Assembly: GCF_000172635.2 (NCBI RefSeq)
Contig: NC_018632.1
Location: forward strand, 2,170,001-2,234,000
DNA: 64,000 bases
DNA from: Alteromonas macleodii ATCC 27126
GTDB lineage: Bacteria > Pseudomonadota > Gammaproteobacteria > Enterobacterales > Alteromonadaceae
Direction: 5' to 3'
Made by a program: the position numbers and the translations under genes. Below, piece after piece: positions 53,424-60,840 of this stretch (position 1 is the stretch's first letter; every line of letters begins with the position of its first letter). The notes beneath the pieces were generated by a model. The model was not told the DNA's origin and searched no databases. It saw only the letters and a list, made by a program, of their open reading frames with translations.

Positions 53424-54419
53424 ATGTCTAAATATATTGTATGCGCAATGTATAAATTTGTTGCGCTTGAAAACTTCAAAGAAATCCGCCAACCGCTTCT
53501 CGAAACAATGGAAGCTAATGGCATTAAAGGTACACTTCTTCTTGCCCACGAAGGGATAAACGGTACGGTTTCTGGTACCCGCGAAGGTATCGACGCATTA
53601 CTTGCTTATTTAAACAGCGACGAGCGTATTAATCCTATTTCTTGCAAAGAATCTCTTCACGATGAACAGCCGTTCTATCGCACCAAGGTAAAACTGAAAA
53701 AAGAAATTGTGACCATGGGCGTTGAGGGTATTGACCCTCGCAAAACCGTTGGTACTTACGTAAAACCTAAAGACTGGAACGCACTTATTAGCGACCCAGA
53801 TGTTACGGTTATTGACACGCGAAACGGTTATGAAATTGAAATTGGTACGTTCAAACACGCTATCGACCCTAAAACCGAAACGTTTCGTGAGTTTCCTGAA
53901 TACGTAGCGAAAGAGCTCGACCCGTCAAAAAATAAAAAAGTGGCTATGTTCTGCACCGGTGGTATTCGCTGTGAAAAATCGACGGCTTACTTGAAAGAGC
54001 AGGGGTTTGACGAGGTTTATCACTTAGAAGGCGGTATTCTACAGTACCTTGAAGATGTGCCGAAAGAAGAGTCATTGTGGGAAGGCGATTGCTTTGTATT
54101 TGATAATCGCGTTGCAGTTAACCACGACTTAGAGAAAAGCCATTATGAGCAGTGCTACGCGTGCAGACTTCCAATTACTGAAGAAGACAAGCAGAGTGAT
54201 AAGTATGAGCCGGGTGTAAGCTGCCCACACTGCTTTGGTACCCATACCGACGATCAAATTGCTCGCTTTAGAGAACGTGAAAAACAGGTTCAGCTGGCAA
54301 AAGAGCGTCAACAAGAGCACGTAGGAACGGAAGCGCGTTTGACCATGGAACAAAAGCGTCAGGAAAAAGCAGAAGCTCAACGTTTACGCGCACTTAAAGC
54401 AAAAGAAAATCAGGCGTAG
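53424..54419 (+). CDS. trhO: tRNA uridine(34) hydroxylase TrhO (YceA)
   Basis: A 331-residue rhodanese-domain protein that hydroxylates U34 of certain tRNAs, the first step to cmo5U; its product is finished by CmoM, encoded at the left edge of this window. The N-terminal acylphosphatase-like/HMA fold carries HEGINGT; the rhodanese domain has the active-site Cys in [13 protein letters not shown]-terminal zinc-binding segment has Cys residues in CYACRLPI and CPHCFGTH. The tail is basic and coiled. Length is normal (E. coli 350). Start ATG 53424; several shadow frames share the region. Confidence 0.92.
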
Positions 54420-54477
54420 ACAGCTAGAAAGAAGGGCGTTACACTCGTGCTTATTGCAGTTGAAATAAGGAATGCGA

Positions 54478-54720
54478 GTGAGCACTCAACTTTCAGAATC
54501 TAAAATTGAAGAAATTAGAAAGGACTTCAGCTTTTTCGATCGTGATGGCAACGGCCAAATCGATTTGCCGGAGTTCATCGAGCTTCTAACCGTTATTTCA
54601 CCAAAAACGAAAGCTAGCCACGTACAAGAAGGCTTTAAGCTTATCGATAGTAACGACGACGGTTACATCGACTTTGAAGAGTTTTTGGAGTGGTGGCAAG
54701 AAGGATGGTGGGAATACTAA
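54478..54720 (+). CDS. Small cytoplasmic EF-hand protein
   Basis: An 80-residue protein consisting of one EF-hand pair: loops DRDGNGQIDLPE and DSNDDGYIDFEE, each with the 12-residue calcium pattern. No signal peptide. GTG 54478 is preferred because AAGGAA ends 5 bases before it; the ATG at 54472 would leave no spacing. It is likely co-transcribed with trhO, 58 bases upstream. It may be a calcium sensor regulating another protein; target unknown. Ends WWQEGWWEY, an unusual Trp-rich tail. Confidence 0.85.
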   Translation: MSTQLSESKIEEIRKDFSFFDRDGNGQIDLPEFIELLTVISPKTKASHVQEGFKLIDSNDDGYIDFEEFLEWWQEGWWEY

Positions 54721-54846: not shown

Positions 54847-55150
54847 ATGTGTTGAGTTTGGTGATTTGTGTTGAGGGCGAAATGTAGCGTCCATACGATA
54901 GCCTTCACTATTGGCGTTGTTCCTTGTGTTCACATTCAGAGTTGGAGTGCTCAACACTTGATCTGACGTTTTTTATAACAGAGCGAGAACAAATCTGACA
55001 GTCTCTAGTGTACGTATAGCAGAGAATTGTCCTTTCCCATGAAAACACAGAGTATAGTTTTTCAGGGGAAACGGGTGTTACTATGAAGTCCCAGTAATAA
55101 GCTGTTACCCCCACATGTGGTGGTTCGGTCAACGAGGAATGAGATAAAGA
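54847..55150. other. Left flank of the cassette region
   Basis: About 300 bases of AT-rich sequence before the first cassette-like gene. I looked for an attC or a GTTRRRY core and found none convincing; the best partial is TAACAGAGCGAGAAC at 54976-54990. It may be the junction between the chromosome and the array, or a decayed attI/attC. Confidence 0.35.
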
Positions 55151-55789
55151 ATGGAAGCAAAAATTCAACATATTAAAATAATTAATAAAATTTACTCTTT
55201 GTTTCATACCCCATACATTTGTACGAATAATTGGGCGGTATATTTGCTATCGGACAAATACCAAGGTGATAGGCCTTTGATCACAAAGGCTATGGTTTTG
55301 CTATTTACAAGCTTACTTGATGTGGTGAGCTCACACAGCAAGAAAATAGATGGCTTTAAAAATGAGGCTGTATCAAAAAATCAGCTCCATTTAGTTCGCT
55401 ATTGCAAACAATCTTACGAACTCGTTGACTCAATTATCGAGCTATGGAGTGCTTTTACCGAAGAAGAACAAATATTCATACAAGATTATAGAAATCAATT
55501 GGTTCACGGTTACCTCAATGGGCAAAATGAGAAACACATCAGAGTCAAATACATCAAGAATGGTGAGCTTAATGTTAAGTCTATGCCAGAGCGAGAATAT
55601 AGATTGTTAATTAGCCAGATACATGAAAGAGGTTTGTTTGGTGATGTAGTGCTTGAGCTTGTTATGGGACTAATGAACAAGAAATACAAGTACTGGAAAA
55701 TTTGGGATGAATACTCTGATAGACATGCTGAGATATATGAAAATATGCTATCAGGCAAAGAATCTAATTGGATAAGCATTAGAGCCTGA
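55151..55789 (+). CDS. HEPN-like protein in an integron-type cassette array
   Basis: A 212-residue helical protein, AT-rich compared with neighbours. Residues 110-120 read FIQDYRNQLVHGYL: Arg114 and His119 form Rx4H, with the RN-x3-H surroundings seen in HEPN ribonucleases and HEPN toxins. The rest is alpha-helical, consistent with the HEPN fold. Its stop lies 36 bases before an attC-like site, and it is on the same strand as the sites' read-through direction, as in integron cassettes. A toxin or abortive-infection RNase role is plausible but not shown; I see no paired antitoxin of MNT type next to it. Start ATG 55151. Confidence 0.65.
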   Translation: MEAKIQHIKIINKIYSLFHTPYICTNNWAVYLLSDKYQGDRPLITKAMVLLFTSLLDVVSSHSKKIDGFKNEAVSKNQLHLVRYCKQSYELVDSIIELWSAFTEEEQIFIQDYRNQLVHGYLNGQNEKHIRVKYIKNGELNVKSMPEREYRLLISQIHERGLFGDVVLELVMGLMNKKYKYWKIWDEYSDRHAEIYENMLSGKESNWISIRA

Positions 55790-55824
55790 TTATTTGGCTC
55801 ATACGGTAGCTGCTTGTAAAGTAG

Positions 55825-55958
55825 GGCTAACAATCGTATCAAGTCGCTCGCAGGCTCGCTGGGACATCAAAACTACGGGGCGATTTAGTTTTGGTGCTTC
55901 GCAAGTTTGTCCCAATCGCCGCTACGTTTTGCTGCTGCCCCTTGTGCGGGCGTTATAT
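55825..55958 (+). repeat. attC-like site A (VCR-type length)
   Basis: It begins GGCTAAC (one base off RYYYAAC) at 55825 and ends in GTTATAT (one off GTTRRRY) at 55952, a length of 134 bases like Vibrio repeats (about 120-130). Internally CTGGGACAT pairs with TTTGTCCCA and AAAACTA with TAGTTTT, so the strand can fold. The end GCCCCTTGTGCGGGCGTTA is very like the 3' end of Vibrio VCR. Confidence 0.72.
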
Positions 55959-55977
55959 TTAGGACTTACCCAAACTT

Positions 55978-56012
55978 AGTGGACATCTCCTATAACATGG
56001 ATGTCCACTTTT
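55978..56012 (+). terminator. Terminator-like hairpin at the start of cassette 2
   Basis: AGTGGACATC and GATGTCCACT form a perfect 10-bp stem with a 12-base loop, followed by TTT. It lies between attC A and the next gene and could stop transcription coming from cassette 1. Confidence 0.6.
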
Positions 56013-56052
56013 AGTGGGTAAGACCAATTTCTATCATCATGGAGTGATCACA

Positions 56053-57608
56053 TTGAGCCAAATCTGTAGTATCGATGACTGCACACGAGAAGTTTTTCAA
56101 AGCACAACTGAGTGTGTCCTTCATTGCAAGAAAAATGACTACTCTCACGATTTCCAAAATAACGGCATTTTGAGAACGTTTTATGATGCATTAATCGAGT
56201 ATATAACTGAATCGGCTTTTGAGTGGAAAAAACCTGACAACCCAGAAATAGTAAATGCCGAGTCATTTAAAAATTACCTTCAGGAAGGTGTTGGCAGTGA
56301 TGAGGTTGTCAATTTCTGCAATAACGAAGTAACAGTATTTAACTTTATCTTCTTTCCATGTAGAGAAAGCAGAGATCACTTTGACTACCTTAAACTTTTA
56401 AGAAAAATTAAAGGTGCACATTTTAACTACTGCAAGTTTACTGCGCACTCAATCGAGATTCCTAAAGTCGAAGCATTTTTTCAAGATTGTGAGTTCTTTC
56501 AATGGTGGACTATCACTCAGTCCAAACTGCTTGGAAATGTAAATAATGTATTATATCAAAACTGTACGTTTAGAGAAGATGTCAGCTCACACTTGGGTGA
56601 TGAGCACAGTTCAACGCTAGATGTACCATTATTTAACAATTGCTCCTTTGATAAAAGCCTATCGTTTGAAAGTGTCATCCTTAAAAAACCTGTATTTAAT
56701 AACACGGATGACGACCTTATAAAAATCCACAAGCTACGGATTGAAAATTGTGAGATAGATGGAAAGTTTGTACTTAACAAGCTAAACGCTGAATATATGT
56801 TGATTGAAAACTCTGAATTTAAAGCCAAGTTTGAATTAAAAGAAGGTTTGATTGATGAAATTGAATTAATCAACACCAATTTCAACGGACTCTTCGACTC
56901 TTATTCTACAGAGTATGGTCGTTTTTATTGTTTTAAGTGCATATTCAGTGATTTCGTAGGCTTCGAAAAATCTAAATTCGCAGCTCTGCAAGGAGATAAT
57001 GAATTAAATCAATTATCAATATTTAGATATGTTACATTTTTGAGCTTTACCAACTTTAGAAATTCCACGTTCTTTCAGGGTATTGACCTAGAAAACACAA
57101 ATTTAAAAGAAGCCCCGAACTTTCTGAATATAGAAGTGTTATCAAACAACACAAATAGGGAGACTCTGAGAATAATAAAAGACTCTTTCGATAAAATTGG
57201 AAATCATATCGAAGCAAACAAGTTTTTGTTCTTGAAATGGCTAAATATAAACAAGGGCTATCTGATAAGCCTTTCAATCAAGAGAAATTAATTTTCTGGC
57301 TAAATGAAAAGAGCTCTAACTTTGGCCAGAGCTATTTATTGCCTGTTTTATGGATAGTGCTTTTCTCAATAATTTATTATTTGCTAATTCTTGGCCATGA
57401 AAGCAATCTGCTATATAACTTAGTGCCGTCCGCCAACGAAGCTATAAGTTCAGTATCAAGTGTCTTAAATGGAATAGCAGCAAATATAATACCTCTCAAA
57501 AAATTACTTCGAGAAGGTATGGAGTTTACTAGCCTTGTGTTCTATGTCATTTTCGCTAGTTTGATATGGCAAACAATTGTAGCCCTAAAAAGGCACACTA
57601 GGCGTTAA
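56053..57608 (+). pseudogene. Pentapeptide-like repeat membrane protein, broken by a 1-base frameshift
   Basis: Two frames together make one protein. Frame 1 (to 57291) begins with a Cys-rich start (CSIDDC, CVLHC) and then repeats F-x-NC-x-F-like units (for example QNCTFRED, NNCSFDKS, IENCEIDG, IENSEFKAK, INTNFNGL), a right-handed beta-helix pattern. Frame 2 (from about 57223 to 57608) continues as EMAKYKQGLSDKPFNQEKL and two membrane helices (PVLWIVLFSIIYYLLI and FYVIFASLIWQTIVAL). They join at a T run at 57223-57227: with six T instead of five, the frame reads ANKFFVLEMAKYK, as expected for this family. So a T was lost (or a sequencing error). Start is TTG 56053 (GGAG 8 bases before); GTG 56014 is the longer alternative. 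The attC B site follows 4 bases after the stop. Confidence 0.7.
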
Positions 57609-57612
57609 CGAA

Positions 57613-57657
57613 ACATAACAAGGGCGTGCAATCTGACTCCGGAAGCTGGCGTTAGGC
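57613..57657 (+). repeat. attC-like site B (short)
   Basis: It starts ACATAAC at 57613 (degenerate R'' box) and ends with a canonical GTTAGGC (GTTRRRY) at 57651-57657. At 45 bases it is shorter than usual and its internal pairing is weak, so it may be a reduced site. Its position directly after a stop codon supports it. Confidence 0.6.
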
Positions 57658-57694
57658 TGCAGATGTGTTCGTTTGAAACAATAATGATAGCTTT

Positions 57695-57976
57695 ATGATA
57701 AAAAGACAATTCTACAGAAGTTTGATCGAACTTGGTCATGGTATCGATGATTTAGGTAGAAAAGATACTTGGAATTTAATTGAAAAATCGTTTAAAACTA
57801 AACTTTGCCCAATTTGTAAAAGTTCTGTAAGTAAATACCATCATACACCGACGTTCGCTGAAGACGAGTACCGACCTCCTTGGGATTGGGTAATAATGTC
57901 TCCTATATTGTATTTATGCGATTTTTGCAATTGGTGGAACTCAACTAAAGAAGGTCAGCTAAATGGAATTGGCTGA
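57695..57976 (+). CDS. Zinc-ribbon N-terminal part of a restriction endonuclease-like protein
   Basis: A 93-residue ORF. It has two CxxC pairs (LCPICKS and LCDFCNWWN) spaced about 35 residues, forming a zinc ribbon of the kind that precedes Mrr-type endonuclease domains. It has no nuclease motif itself. The next frame downstream encodes such a nuclease (57988-58581), offset by one frame and with a TAG at 57985, so the two were probably one gene. The start ATG 57695 lies 37 bases after attC B. As a stand-alone product it is likely non-functional; if it is not broken, a short zinc protein is possible. AT-rich. Confidence 0.55.
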   Translation: MIKRQFYRSLIELGHGIDDLGRKDTWNLIEKSFKTKLCPICKSSVSKYHHTPTFAEDEYRPPWDWVIMSPILYLCDFCNWWNSTKEGQLNGIG

Positions 57977-58065
57977 AATACCTATAGCCATATATTCATT
58001 ACCCAGTACTAGAAGAAATCGATATTTCTAGTAATTCAATAGTAATCGATGACCTTAAACTCAAC

Positions 58066-58581
58066 TTGCTGAAAAGTTGGGAGGATAGAAAACTTATTAG
58101 TGCAGGGGCCGCAGAGTCTCTAGTACAGTCTATATTAAAAGAACATTTATCGTGTGACGTTCTTACTTCAACCGCTAATGTTAACGACCCAGATGGTGGT
58201 ATTGATCTGCATGTGTGTTCTAAAAACGGCAACATAATTAGTGCTGTTCAAGTAAAAAGGCGGATTTCTCAAAACACTGAATCAGTTTCAGAAGTAAGAA
58301 ATTTTGTCGGTGCTATGGAAATAGAAGACATTAAAAAAGGTATTTTTGTAACAACCGCAGATAAATTTACTAAGCCTGCAAATAAAATCCCAGAAAAGCT
58401 CAAAAGTATTAACAGCAGGCTTGAACTTCAACTAATAGATGGTCAAAGCCTCTTCGAACTTTTAAAATGCAATATTCGTCCTGAAACATTAATTATGCCA
58501 CCAGATGTTGATGAGAAATCAATTTGGATTGGGGAATGTGGCAATAGATTTACAACTCAAAGTTTGATCTATGCAGAATGA
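58066..58581 (+). CDS. Mrr-like restriction endonuclease domain (C-terminal part)
   Basis: A 171-residue PD-(D/E)xK-type nuclease domain. Motif residues are Glu18 (AAESLVQ), Asp47 in DPDGGIDLHV and Gln62-x-Lys64 in SAVQVKRR, the typical D...QxK arrangement of Mrr/type IV restriction endonucleases; FVTTADKFTKPA is also typical. The reading frame is open back to 57988, giving a leading segment PVLEEIDISSNSIVIDDLKLN that resembles the linker before Mrr domains. TTG 58066 is the nominal start but there is no evidence it is used; the real start was probably at the zinc-ribbon ORF upstream. Stop is 9 bases before attC C. It would cut modified foreign DNA. Confidence 0.6.
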   Translation: MLKSWEDRKLISAGAAESLVQSILKEHLSCDVLTSTANVNDPDGGIDLHVCSKNGNIISAVQVKRRISQNTESVSEVRNFVGAMEIEDIKKGIFVTTADKFTKPANKIPEKLKSINSRLELQLIDGQSLFELLKCNIRPETLIMPPDVDEKSIWIGECGNRFTTQSLIYAE

Positions 58582-58590
58582 GAAAAAATA

Positions 58591-58643
58591 GCCTAACAAG
58601 ACGCTGCTGCCGGACAAATTTTCCGCAGAGCGCGGCGTTAAAC
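58591..58643 (+). repeat. attC-like site C (canonical cores)
   Basis: It begins GCCTAAC (exact RYYYAAC) at 58591 and ends GTTAAAC (exact GTTRRRY) at 58637-58643, 53 bases in all. The arms TAAC-x4-CGCTGCTGC... and GCAG-AGCGCGGCGTTA pair imperfectly with extra-helical bases, as attC requires. It lies 9 bases after the Mrr-like stop. Confidence 0.8.
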
Positions 58644-58736
58644 GTCCGCTATTTGTCTAAAACGGACCTCTAACACAAACGCTACTCTAAGCAATAAGTA
58701 CCGGCGTCCTAAAATGCAATCCTTGGTGAATACAAA

Positions 58737-59285
58737 TTACCAATTAGCACTGTATATTTTATTGGCTGCGGACGCTTCTACTTCTAGTGGGGCTTTATCG
58801 TAACCGTATTCAGCCATGTCGAAAAAGTGTTGGGTGACAACTTCATCTAAACTGGCTCGTTCAATCTGTAACACATGCACTAATTCGTGGGCTAACTTGG
58901 GTCTATTAAGCTCGAAATCTTTACGAGCATAAATCGAATAGCCGAAAACTTGTGCGTTAATTATTATTCCTTCTCCAACAAGTCCAACGGCTTCGCCAAA
59001 CACTTTAAGCGCGAAGTTTTCGTAGGGATATGGCACTTCATCTACATAAACAATTCTTACTTTCTTAGGCTGTTTAATTCCTATCTCCACTGCTAGCGCC
59101 AATTCTTGTTCATTCAACGGTTGACCTATTTTTAAGCCTTTCATATCTGTTTCATGTGCCCACTCTATGTACTGCGGCAACAATACGCGTACTATTATTT
59201 TTTCATAGGAGAGTGCCACAACGACTATTACTATAAACAAGGCTAACGATACGAACTTTATAAATTTCATGTGGTTAAAATCCAT
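58737..59285 (-). CDS. Membrane-anchored HELVH metallopeptidase-like protein
   Basis: A 182-residue protein with one N-terminal membrane helix (residues about 8-27) and a catalytic-type motif HELVHVLQ (His133, Glu134, His137, Gln140), the pattern of DUF4157-like zinc peptidases. It ends NKIYSANW. Start: ATG 59285 gives MDFNHMK; an in-frame ATG at 59270 is possible; neither has a ribosome site. It is transcribed opposite to the cassettes and has no attC on its right, so it is more likely a native gene at the array border than a cassette, but this is not settled. Substrate unknown. Confidence 0.65.
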   Translation of the reverse strand: MDFNHMKFIKFVSLALFIVIVVVALSYEKIIVRVLLPQYIEWAHETDMKGLKIGQPLNEQELALAVEIGIKQPKKVRIVYVDEVPYPYENFALKVFGEAVGLVGEGIIINAQVFGYSIYARKDFELNRPKLAHELVHVLQIERASLDEVVTQHFFDMAEYGYDKAPLEVEASAANKIYSANW

Positions 59286-59514: not shown

Positions 59515-60840
59515 TTACTCGTCGTCGTCAGACAGAGTGTTTCTTGGCTTGCGTTTCACAGGAACCATACCAATATCTTCTCCAGACATGGTATCGACAC
59601 GTTTTTTAGTGCCAGGTTTTGCTGGTTTCGCTACGCGCTTTTTACCATTTTTCGCATTTGATTGTTTCGACACTTTTTTCTTCGGGGTAAAACCTTTAAA
59701 AGACGCCGAAAATTCGTCGTGTGGTGAACACTCTAATGCATATTGAAGGTGATTCTTAAGCCCTTCGAAACTGTTCCAGTCACGAGGGCCAATTAGCGAG
59801 AATGCTTCGCCTTTTTGCCCAGCACGGCCTGTACGGCCGATACGGTGAATGTATTCATCCGCGTTCTTAGGAAGGTCAAAGTTAACCACCAATCCTACTT
59901 TTGATAGATCTAGTCCACGAGAGGCGAGGTCGGTAGTAACCAGAATACTGTGCTGTCCACGAGCAAACGCACTCATTACTGCTGCGCGTTGGCTTTGTAG
60001 CATATCACCACGAAGCGCAATAGCTTCTAAGTTTTGTTCGTTAAGCAGTGCTGCAATTCTATCGGTATCTTCACGGGTAGCTGTAAATACGATAGCTTGG
60101 TTGTAGGTACGATTGGCTAGCTCAAACTGTAAAATTTGATCTTTGTTATCAACATTGTCTGCAAAGAAGCACTTCTGTTCGATATCGCCATGCTCTGCTG
60201 TTGAGTCTCCTACAGCTACACGAACAGCGCCTTTGGTTAACTGCGTTGTCATATGCTTTAGCTCAATATTATCGAGCGTGGCAGAAAACAACATAGTTTG
60301 ACGCTTTCTGTGATCAGCATAGTCGTTAATCATTTTAAGCTGAGCAGAGAAGCCTAAGTCTAACATTCGGTCTGCTTCATCAAAGATAAGCAACTCTAAA
60401 CCGTTTAAATACACACTTTTATCTAATAGATGGTCGGCTACACGACCAGCGGTACCAACGATAATGTGAGGGTTACGGCGAAGCGCTTTAACTTGGTCGT
60501 TATAATTTTCACCACCCACAATAAGTGAACAAGTAAGATTTAGCCCGGTACACATTGATTTAGCTTCGATGAAAACTTGTTTGGCTAGCTCACGAGTTGG
60601 CGCAAGAATAAGTGCGCGTGGGTCTTGACGACTAAGGGCTTTTTGCGACATTAGCCTGTTTATAGCTGGCACTAAAAAGGCGAAGGTTTTACCTGACCCC
60701 GTTTTTGATGACGCAATAATATCTTTGCCCTGAATAGCTGGCAGCATAGTGCGTTCTTGAATTTCGGTTAGCGTCGAAATGTTTTTCGTTTCGAGCTTTG
60801 AAATAATTTTGTGGTGAACAGGTAAATCAGTAACTAGCAA
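59515..60840 (-). CDS. DEAD-box RNA helicase
   Basis: A 441-residue ATP-dependent RNA helicase. Motifs: Q motif (NISTLTEIQ), Walker A (SSKTGSGKT), PTREL, GTAGRVAD, DEAD, SAT, ASRGLD and HRIGRTGR. After the core is a basic tail rich in Lys and Pro (KPAKPGTKKRVD). It is different from RhlE at 8772 and closer to the group of small DEAD-box proteins related to DeaD/RhlE. The only possible start is TTG 60840; an in-frame stop lies just upstream, so the ORF is short of nothing. Role in ribosome assembly or RNA decay is family inference. Confidence 0.82.
   Translation of the reverse strand: MLVTDLPVHHKIISKLETKNISTLTEIQERTMLPAIQGKDIIASSKTGSGKTFAFLVPAINRLMSQKALSRQDPRALILAPTRELAKQVFIEAKSMCTGLNLTCSLIVGGENYNDQVKALRRNPHIIVGTAGRVADHLLDKSVYLNGLELLIFDEADRMLDLGFSAQLKMINDYADHRKRQTMLFSATLDNIELKHMTTQLTKGAVRVAVGDSTAEHGDIEQKCFFADNVDNKDQILQFELANRTYNQAIVFTATREDTDRIAALLNEQNLEAIALRGDMLQSQRAAVMSAFARGQHSILVTTDLASRGLDLSKVGLVVNFDLPKNADEYIHRIGRTGRAGQKGEAFSLIGPRDWNSFEGLKNHLQYALECSPHDEFSASFKGFTPKKKVSKQSNAKNGKKRVAKPAKPGTKKRVDTMSGEDIGMVPVKRKPRNTLSDDDE

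Follow-up and report, generated by a model that had tools for sequence, protein, structure and literature searches.

An integrase-less cassette cluster of Alteromonas macleodii whose last attC meets a repeated intergenic element, a candidate target for insertion outside attI

Introduction

Arrays of attC sites without an integron integrase are already known from the genus Alteromonas. As recorded in the relevant part of Lopez-Perez 2014 (PMC4119200), integrase-less attC sites occur at two further regions of the compared Alteromonas genomes, the third being missing in one strain. Cassette insertion outside attI has been described for genomic targets termed attG (Loot 2024, Nat Microbiol), as outlined in passages of PMC12901181 and PMC12444791 and cited in PMC11023631. 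The pertinent text of PMC12444791 contrasts the fixed places of clusters of attC sites lacking an integrase (CALINs) with the scattered attG insertions of E. coli, and raises the question of why CALINs recur at fixed chromosomal places. Here we describe a CALIN in a 64-kb stretch (64,000 nucleotides; "the window") of the complete 4.65-Mb chromosome of Alteromonas macleodii ATCC 27126 (contig NC_018632.1, positions 2,170,001 to 2,234,000). What is new here is its right junction, which lies on an intergenic repeat. The CALIN itself is real, and the repeat at its end makes targeted insertion outside attI a candidate explanation, as far as sequence comparison reaches. Positions are those of the window unless chromosome coordinates are named; labels beginning with G, C and L denote genomes, contigs and loci.

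Results

Three attC sites without an integrase

The cluster comprises three attC sites in one orientation, spanning less than 2.9 kb:

55825-55958, plus strand: attC site 1, right end GTTATAT; model R2 E 3.6e-4; blastn to attC of arrays E 6.7e-9
57613-57657, plus strand: attC site 2, right end GTTAGGC; short and decayed; model R1 E 0.007, R2 E 1e-3; no fold
58591-58643, plus strand: attC site 3, the last of the array, right end GTTAAAC; R1 E 9.3e-5, R2 E 8.6e-7; hairpin

A weight matrix made from the long attC family of the genus itself did not tell these sites apart from shuffled sequences, and covariance models were therefore built from attC sites of several genera together with Alteromonas. 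Model R1 represents the attC ends and derives from 22 attC sites found near integrases, both in other genera and in Alteromonas relatives; model R2 includes full centres and derives from 31 R1 hits. Neither holds sequence of the genome under study, and their E-values are rough owing to a short calibration. Searching the whole window on both strands with filters off, R2 placed exactly sites 3, 1 and 2 at the top (E 8.6e-7, 3.6e-4 and 1e-3), followed by a fourth match at E 0.64. The shorter model R1, run over the whole window, ranked sites 3 and 2 first and missed site 1, which has a long centre. Site 1 has blastn matches among the attC sites of integrase-bearing relatives (loci L110 and L098; best E 6.7e-9). 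The blastn match of site 3 (E 2.8e-10) lies in the integron region of G007, in a stretch not called by R2, and site 2 has no blastn match. No Rfam family matched at its gathering score, and the three matches under that score are weak and unrelated. Single-strand folding is attC-like only in site 3, the bottom strand of which folds with -9.7 kcal/mol, though 27 of 200 shuffles fold equally well; sites 1 and 2 show no advantage over shuffles. Upstream of the three sites, plus-strand open reading frames (ORFs) end at 55789, 57608 and 58581, leaving 35, 4 and 9 bases between stop and attC.

The three sites are real attC sites. They stand where a preliminary description of this DNA had placed them, with the orientation, the right ends and the spacing of 4-35 bases behind plus-strand stops that it had given; the covariance-model search it had proposed ranks all three highest in the window, and the palindrome that it had noted at 58591 corresponds to the fold of site 3.

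Over the complete genome, no integron integrase scored above the curated cut-off of TIGR02249. A search for IntI outside the cluster, likewise proposed earlier, yielded pieces only, at chromosome positions 520036-520566 (profile positions 1-50, 47-94 and 220-315, with a stop), 1.7 Mb from the array; beside them lie an attI-like sequence and cassettes with two attC sites (518-520 kb). An integrase above the cut-off is found in 56 of the 59 genomes of the genus, this one counted among the 59, and is lacking in three. The attC sites being real, no integrase above the cut-off being present in the genome and relatives with the same flanking genes having other contents, the region is a CALIN, that is, a cluster of three cassettes without an integrase. 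The preliminary description had named it as such; to it we add the repeated target at the right end, two broken cassettes, the decay of site 2 and a hot spot of the genus.

Junctions with the host DNA

At the right end, homology to the host sequence of the relative G001 restarts at 58641, inside the R' box of site 3 (G at 58637), and the host sequence begins TTAAACGTCCGCTATTTGTCTAAAACGGAC. The last attC meets host DNA at the G^TT of an intergenic repeat, GTTRAACGNCYGCTNNTTGTC:

58637-58667, plus strand: intergenic repeat and proposed target, GTTAAACGTCCGCTATTTGTCTAAAACGGAC; core present in 17 copies in 59 genomes

The DNA joined to the attC is thus neither attI nor attC: it is homologous to G001 from 58641, and the repeat is also seen without attC. 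The right core GTTAAAC of site 3 is read as a hybrid with host DNA. At the same locus, G021 has an inverted attC that is likewise joined at G^TT to a sequence resembling the repeat, GTTGAACGACCGCTTAATGTC.

The left end is placed as follows:

54905-54917, plus strand: left junction; host homology stops at 54905 (G001) or 54915 (G022) in blastn; proposed cut G^TT at 54916/54917

The intergenic repeat

The pattern GTTRAACGNCYGCTNNTTGTC, taken from this junction, has 17 copies in 16 of the 59 genomes of the genus and none in a reversed control. Dropping the leading G raises the number of copies to 19 (17 genomes), all but two of which still have a G at that place; the reversed control then gives one. 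We also searched a named genome collection with the pattern lacking G, using only the Alteromonas rows and L304; among the matches listed (80 of 118), most fall in unrelated phyla and are therefore probably due to chance.

A junction at G^TT was found at the right end of the cluster and in 10 of the 17 copies, the window copy included. Nine of these (L183, L184, L187, L192, L194-L198) pass a pairing test, defined as an attC-type stem ending exactly at the GTT of the repeat with p<=0.02. Control GTTRRRY sites in the same loci, from which sites near the repeat or <=250 bp from a model attC were left out, pass in 2 of 98 cases, or in 6 if p<=0.05 is allowed. When the copy of the window is left out, 8 of 16 pass (Fisher 9e-7 versus controls). 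R2 calls an attC directly against the repeat in L183 (E 5.9e-8), L199 (9.1e-5) and L194 (0.014), L199 bringing the total to 10 of 17, and R1 does so in L195 (0.023) and L183 (0.099). By eye and unscored, L188, L189, L190 and L193 also look joined to an attC, and L186 is ambiguous. Again judged by eye, most of the 10 scored copies have dissimilar attC sequences before the repeat.

Comparison of loci sets the gene side of the repeat apart from what lies beyond the cut. Mean identity at a locus with an M14-peptidase gene (G021, G022, G000) is 0.83 over 30 bases on the gene side and 0.36 beyond the cut; the corresponding values at the trhO locus, where the cluster of the window lies (G000, G001, G040, G037, G044; ungapped), are 0.58 and 0.25. 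At both loci, the repeat shows the character of host DNA. Host homology extends across the repeat at the M14-peptidase locus in G022 and G000, yet no clean empty site is found there, because the left side varies too. Copies without attC fall into types: L185 and L191 share a longer left half ending in ACATC before GTTGAAC, which L214 and L304 also have with A for G, whereas another left half is common to G040 (trhO locus) and G022 (M14-peptidase locus), with C or CT at the cut. Eleven of the 17 copies have the end of an opposing ORF 79-215 bp away, so that insertion there would do little harm.

Two other identities for the repeat were rejected. It is not a common 5' leader of cassettes, since a loose form of it has no copy in 20 integron-region loci (336,745 bases with 238 attC hits); nor is it attI, since this genome's two attI-like sequences are CTAAATTGTTAT and TTAAATTGTTAT. 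In L183, another attC lies 0.8 kb downstream, so the repeat may lie inside an array there. One junction of attC and repeat (L198/L373, G058:C2) is on a replicon of 252,173 bases, so plasmids may carry the fusion as well. Integrase action outside the integron, in the form of off-target activity on a plasmid, has reportedly been seen (PMC10127599). At the M14-peptidase locus of G021 (L365 1740-4460), a gene module within a variable region is flanked on either side by repeat-like copies, which suggests that the repeats may mark module borders in general.

The locus across the genus

The cluster lies between two pairs of genes:

53424-54419 and 54472-54720, plus strand: left flank, host genes trhO (Pfam UPF0176_N/rhodanese) and EF-hand gene (Pfam EF-hand)
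58737-59285 and 59515-60840, minus strand: right flank, peptidase-like gene (protein 95% identical in G022, 93% in G001) and DEAD-box helicase gene

All 59 genomes of the genus have trhO, and the EF-hand gene adjoins it in each of the 28 fetched regions that hold trhO. For our sample of relatives, 40 regions surrounding the flanking genes were taken from 35 genomes and compared by tblastn at E 1e-4; two of the regions stop <=0.4 kb behind the EF-hand gene, and 11 have the peptidase-like gene without adjoining trhO and EF-hand genes. None of the cassette proteins was found in this sample. In the eight relatives with trhO, EF-hand gene, peptidase-like gene and helicase, the gap between EF-hand and peptidase-like genes measures 5.1, 1.1, 8.1, 2.2, 5.5, 2.5, 2.1 and 0.14 kb, as against 4.0 kb here. 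Where no peptidase-like gene intervenes, EF-hand gene and helicase are 42-247 bp apart in 10 of 14 relatives and 2.1-7.5 kb apart in the other four. An R2 attC lies in the EF-hand-helicase gap of G024 (E 0.018), nine lie behind the EF-hand gene in G047, where the region ends before the helicase, and the inverted attC of G021 passes the pairing test with p 0.006. Because gap sizes and contents differ among relatives, the locus is a hot spot of insertion, where the contents vary and mostly lack attC. The comparison among relatives suggested in the preliminary description therefore finds no conserved block, only other contents between the same flanking genes. As the peptidase-like gene sits between attC sites in G026 (L087) and G051 (L090), it may once have been a cassette.

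Cassettes and their decay

The three cassettes and the remains of an insertion sequence are:

54917-55952, plus strand: cassette 1, 1036 bp with the left limit inferred; ORF 55151-55789, 212 aa
55953-57651, plus strand: cassette 2, 1699 bp; pentapeptide-type protein in frames 56014-57291 and 57237-57608
55961-56030, no strand assigned: insertion sequence scar of about 70 bp, with both ends and no transposase, directly behind attC site 1
57652-58637, plus strand: cassette 3, 986 bp; Mrr-type restriction endonuclease in frames 57695-57976 and 57988-58581

The 212-aa protein of cassette 1 gives a weak match to a CARF-HEPN model (E 2e-4, 18.6 bits), with four database relatives listed. The protein of cassette 2 has numerous relatives, about 518 aa long, in Psychromonas, Citrobacter, Plesiomonas, Yersinia, Morganella and others; here its gene is split by a frameshift, the frame switching near 57210-57258. 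The ends of the scar are the same as those that enclose transposase ORFs in L180, and from its two ORFs there we take the insertion sequence to be of the IS3 type. In P0005 (581 aa, 96-97% identical per matched piece), known here as a protein only, site 1 runs directly into cassette 2 in one frame, and the scar is absent as far as a protein shows. Either cassette 2 is intact in near relatives or the frameshift here is an assembly error; a base-calling error is unlikely for the scar. Cassette 3 matches Pfam Mrr_cat (9e-15), and its relatives have 295 aa in a single frame, for example in Aeromonas veronii (86% over the matched 197 aa), whereas the frame is split here. With two cassettes frameshifted and site 2 not folding, the array looks decayed.

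Within cassette 1, a non-coding element of about 100 bp (55007-55107) has 74-86% identity to copies in 10 Alteromonas plasmid records; in the three plasmid loci inspected (L135-L137), it stands shortly upstream of unrelated genes.

Other attC sites and recombinase genes in the chromosome

R2 applied to the entire genome (150 of 420 candidates scored) gave 10 attC sites with E<=1. Besides sites 1 and 3 of the window, these comprise a group of five at 2.435 Mb, a pair at 518-519 kb and a single site at 2.076 Mb; site 2 of the window is added by R1, with a genome-wide E of 0.5. The five sites (G000:C1:2435198-2437397; L180 7199-9398) form a second integrase-less array. In front of it stands the attI-like sequence ATAAAGGATTTTTTCTGTACATTAAATTGTTAT, which resembles the one beside the broken intI at 520 kb, and directly behind its last attC lies an insertion sequence, presumably of the IS3 type to judge from its ORFs. 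The single attC at 2.076 Mb (G000:C1:2076374-2076421; L181 8375-8422) is strong (R2 E 9.3e-5) and overlaps the end of an amidohydrolase-like ORF. In chromosome coordinates, this site, the window and the 2.435-Mb array are all close to the middle. A tyrosine recombinase gene that we assume to be XerC/XerD-like occupies two frames at G000:C1:736226-736737, whereas relatives have it as a single ORF of about 300-350 aa; the split is either real or an assembly error.

Discussion

With moderate confidence, we favour the explanation that an integron integrase placed the cluster by joining a cassette attC to the G^TT of the repeated intergenic element in place of attI. A once-working Alteromonas IntI would have folded the bottom strand of the cassette attC, paired it with the repeat as an attG-type target, and cut both at G^TT. 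Such a cut would make the right half of the last R' box host sequence (GTTAAAC, versus GCCTAAC on the left), and the empty locus before insertion would have read ...CACTATTGGCG^TTAAACGTCCGC... without cassettes. After the loss of intI, the cassettes would have been unable to leave, and decay would have begun. Across the genus, the junctions are read as probable off-attI (attG-type) insertion concentrated on one repeated element. We put forward only tentatively the wider idea that this dispersed intergenic repeat is a dedicated chromosomal landing pad for integron cassettes, where IntI insertion at G^TT would make secondary integrase-less arrays and so give CALINs their recurrent positions.

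Several observations weigh against placement by the integrase at the repeat. The left half seen in repeat copies without attC was not found at the left junction at 54916, which leaves one clean end, not two. The R' box adjoining cassette 1 would be GTTGTTC, a poor match to GTTRRRY, so that the exact left cut is a proposed one, and the relatives' sequences compared include no perfect empty site at this locus. Seven of the 17 repeat copies have no scored attC. The attC sites of L184 and L192 are alike and may not be independent junctions. Only two of the six copies without attC (L185, L191) carry G^TT. Looser copies in G037, G040 and G044 are missed by the strict pattern, and the share of all copies that carry attC is therefore not fixed by the 10 of 17. 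Elsewhere, 13 attC sites were obtained as possible array ends, some of them not true ends; none is followed by the repeat, 10 ending in other GTT boxes and three being mis-set by the model. At the locus itself, R2 does not call the attC of G021, and other species have DNA without attC at the same place.

The most serious competing account takes the region as an ordinary CALIN and the repeat as no integrase target: attC and repeat would have become joined on one or a few occasions, and homologous recombination or transposition of intergenic repeats would then have carried the junction from locus to locus. At the trhO and M14-peptidase loci, variable gene modules do have repeat copies at their borders, G010 and G032 have similar upstream attC sites beside different downstream genes, and the right half of site 3 is found again in G021 beside the repeat. 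We nevertheless regard such spread as less likely: the attC sites preceding the repeat differ in most of the scored copies, as noted by eye, and all 10 are joined to it at G^TT, where the integrase cuts.

Improbable to a greater degree is a remnant of a full integron or larger array that lost its attI end and integrase at this very place. This genome does hold remnants of that kind, namely the intI pieces with attI-like sequence and attC sites at 518-520 kb and, at 2.435 Mb, the array of five sites that follows an attI-like sequence and has no intI. A complete integron has intI and attI beside its array, however, and here there is no intI at the locus and, by eye, no attI-like sequence left of cassette 1. 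Host homology also reaches within a few bases of the proposed cassette 1, and the narrow EF-hand-helicase gap (42-247 bp) in 10 of 14 relatives without the peptidase-like gene makes no ancestral integron visible. That the three sites are chance palindromes is scarcely credible. The poor folding of sites 1 and 2 and the failure of the genus-specific weight matrix to pick out the sites would agree with chance, but an independent model ranks precisely these three highest in 64 kb, they share one strand, a stop codon precedes each of them, and site 1 matches array attC sites with E 6.7e-9. Blastn and models together argue against chance for sites 1 and 3, as the models alone do for site 2.

If integrases do prefer one repeated intergenic element, cassette spread outside integrons would be directed rather than random, and predictable from sequence. 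Apart from this, the genome offers a natural case of a dead integrase with cassettes that stayed behind and decay; in the genus, three of 59 genomes are without an intI above the cut-off. We found no description of repeat-targeted cassette insertion in the literature searched, which largely excludes subscription papers.

Like CALINs in general, the present cluster has attC sites in one orientation, each behind an ORF, and no intI nearby; unlike them, its right end is fused to a repeated intergenic element, and two of its three cassettes are frameshifted. The Alteromonas regions of PMC4119200 are likewise attC arrays away from an integrase in the same genus, and section 6 of that paper, unlike the present analysis, has no treatment of targets or junctions. 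With the Xanthomonas CALINs of PMC12444791 it shares the recurrence of the same chromosomal places across species; a repeat at the ends is not mentioned in the part of that text concerned. With attG sites, the proposed insertion has in common that cassettes enter genome sites that are neither attI nor attC. According to the passage in PMC12444791, however, the E. coli insertions are spread over numerous loci, whereas here the junctions recur on one repeat family.

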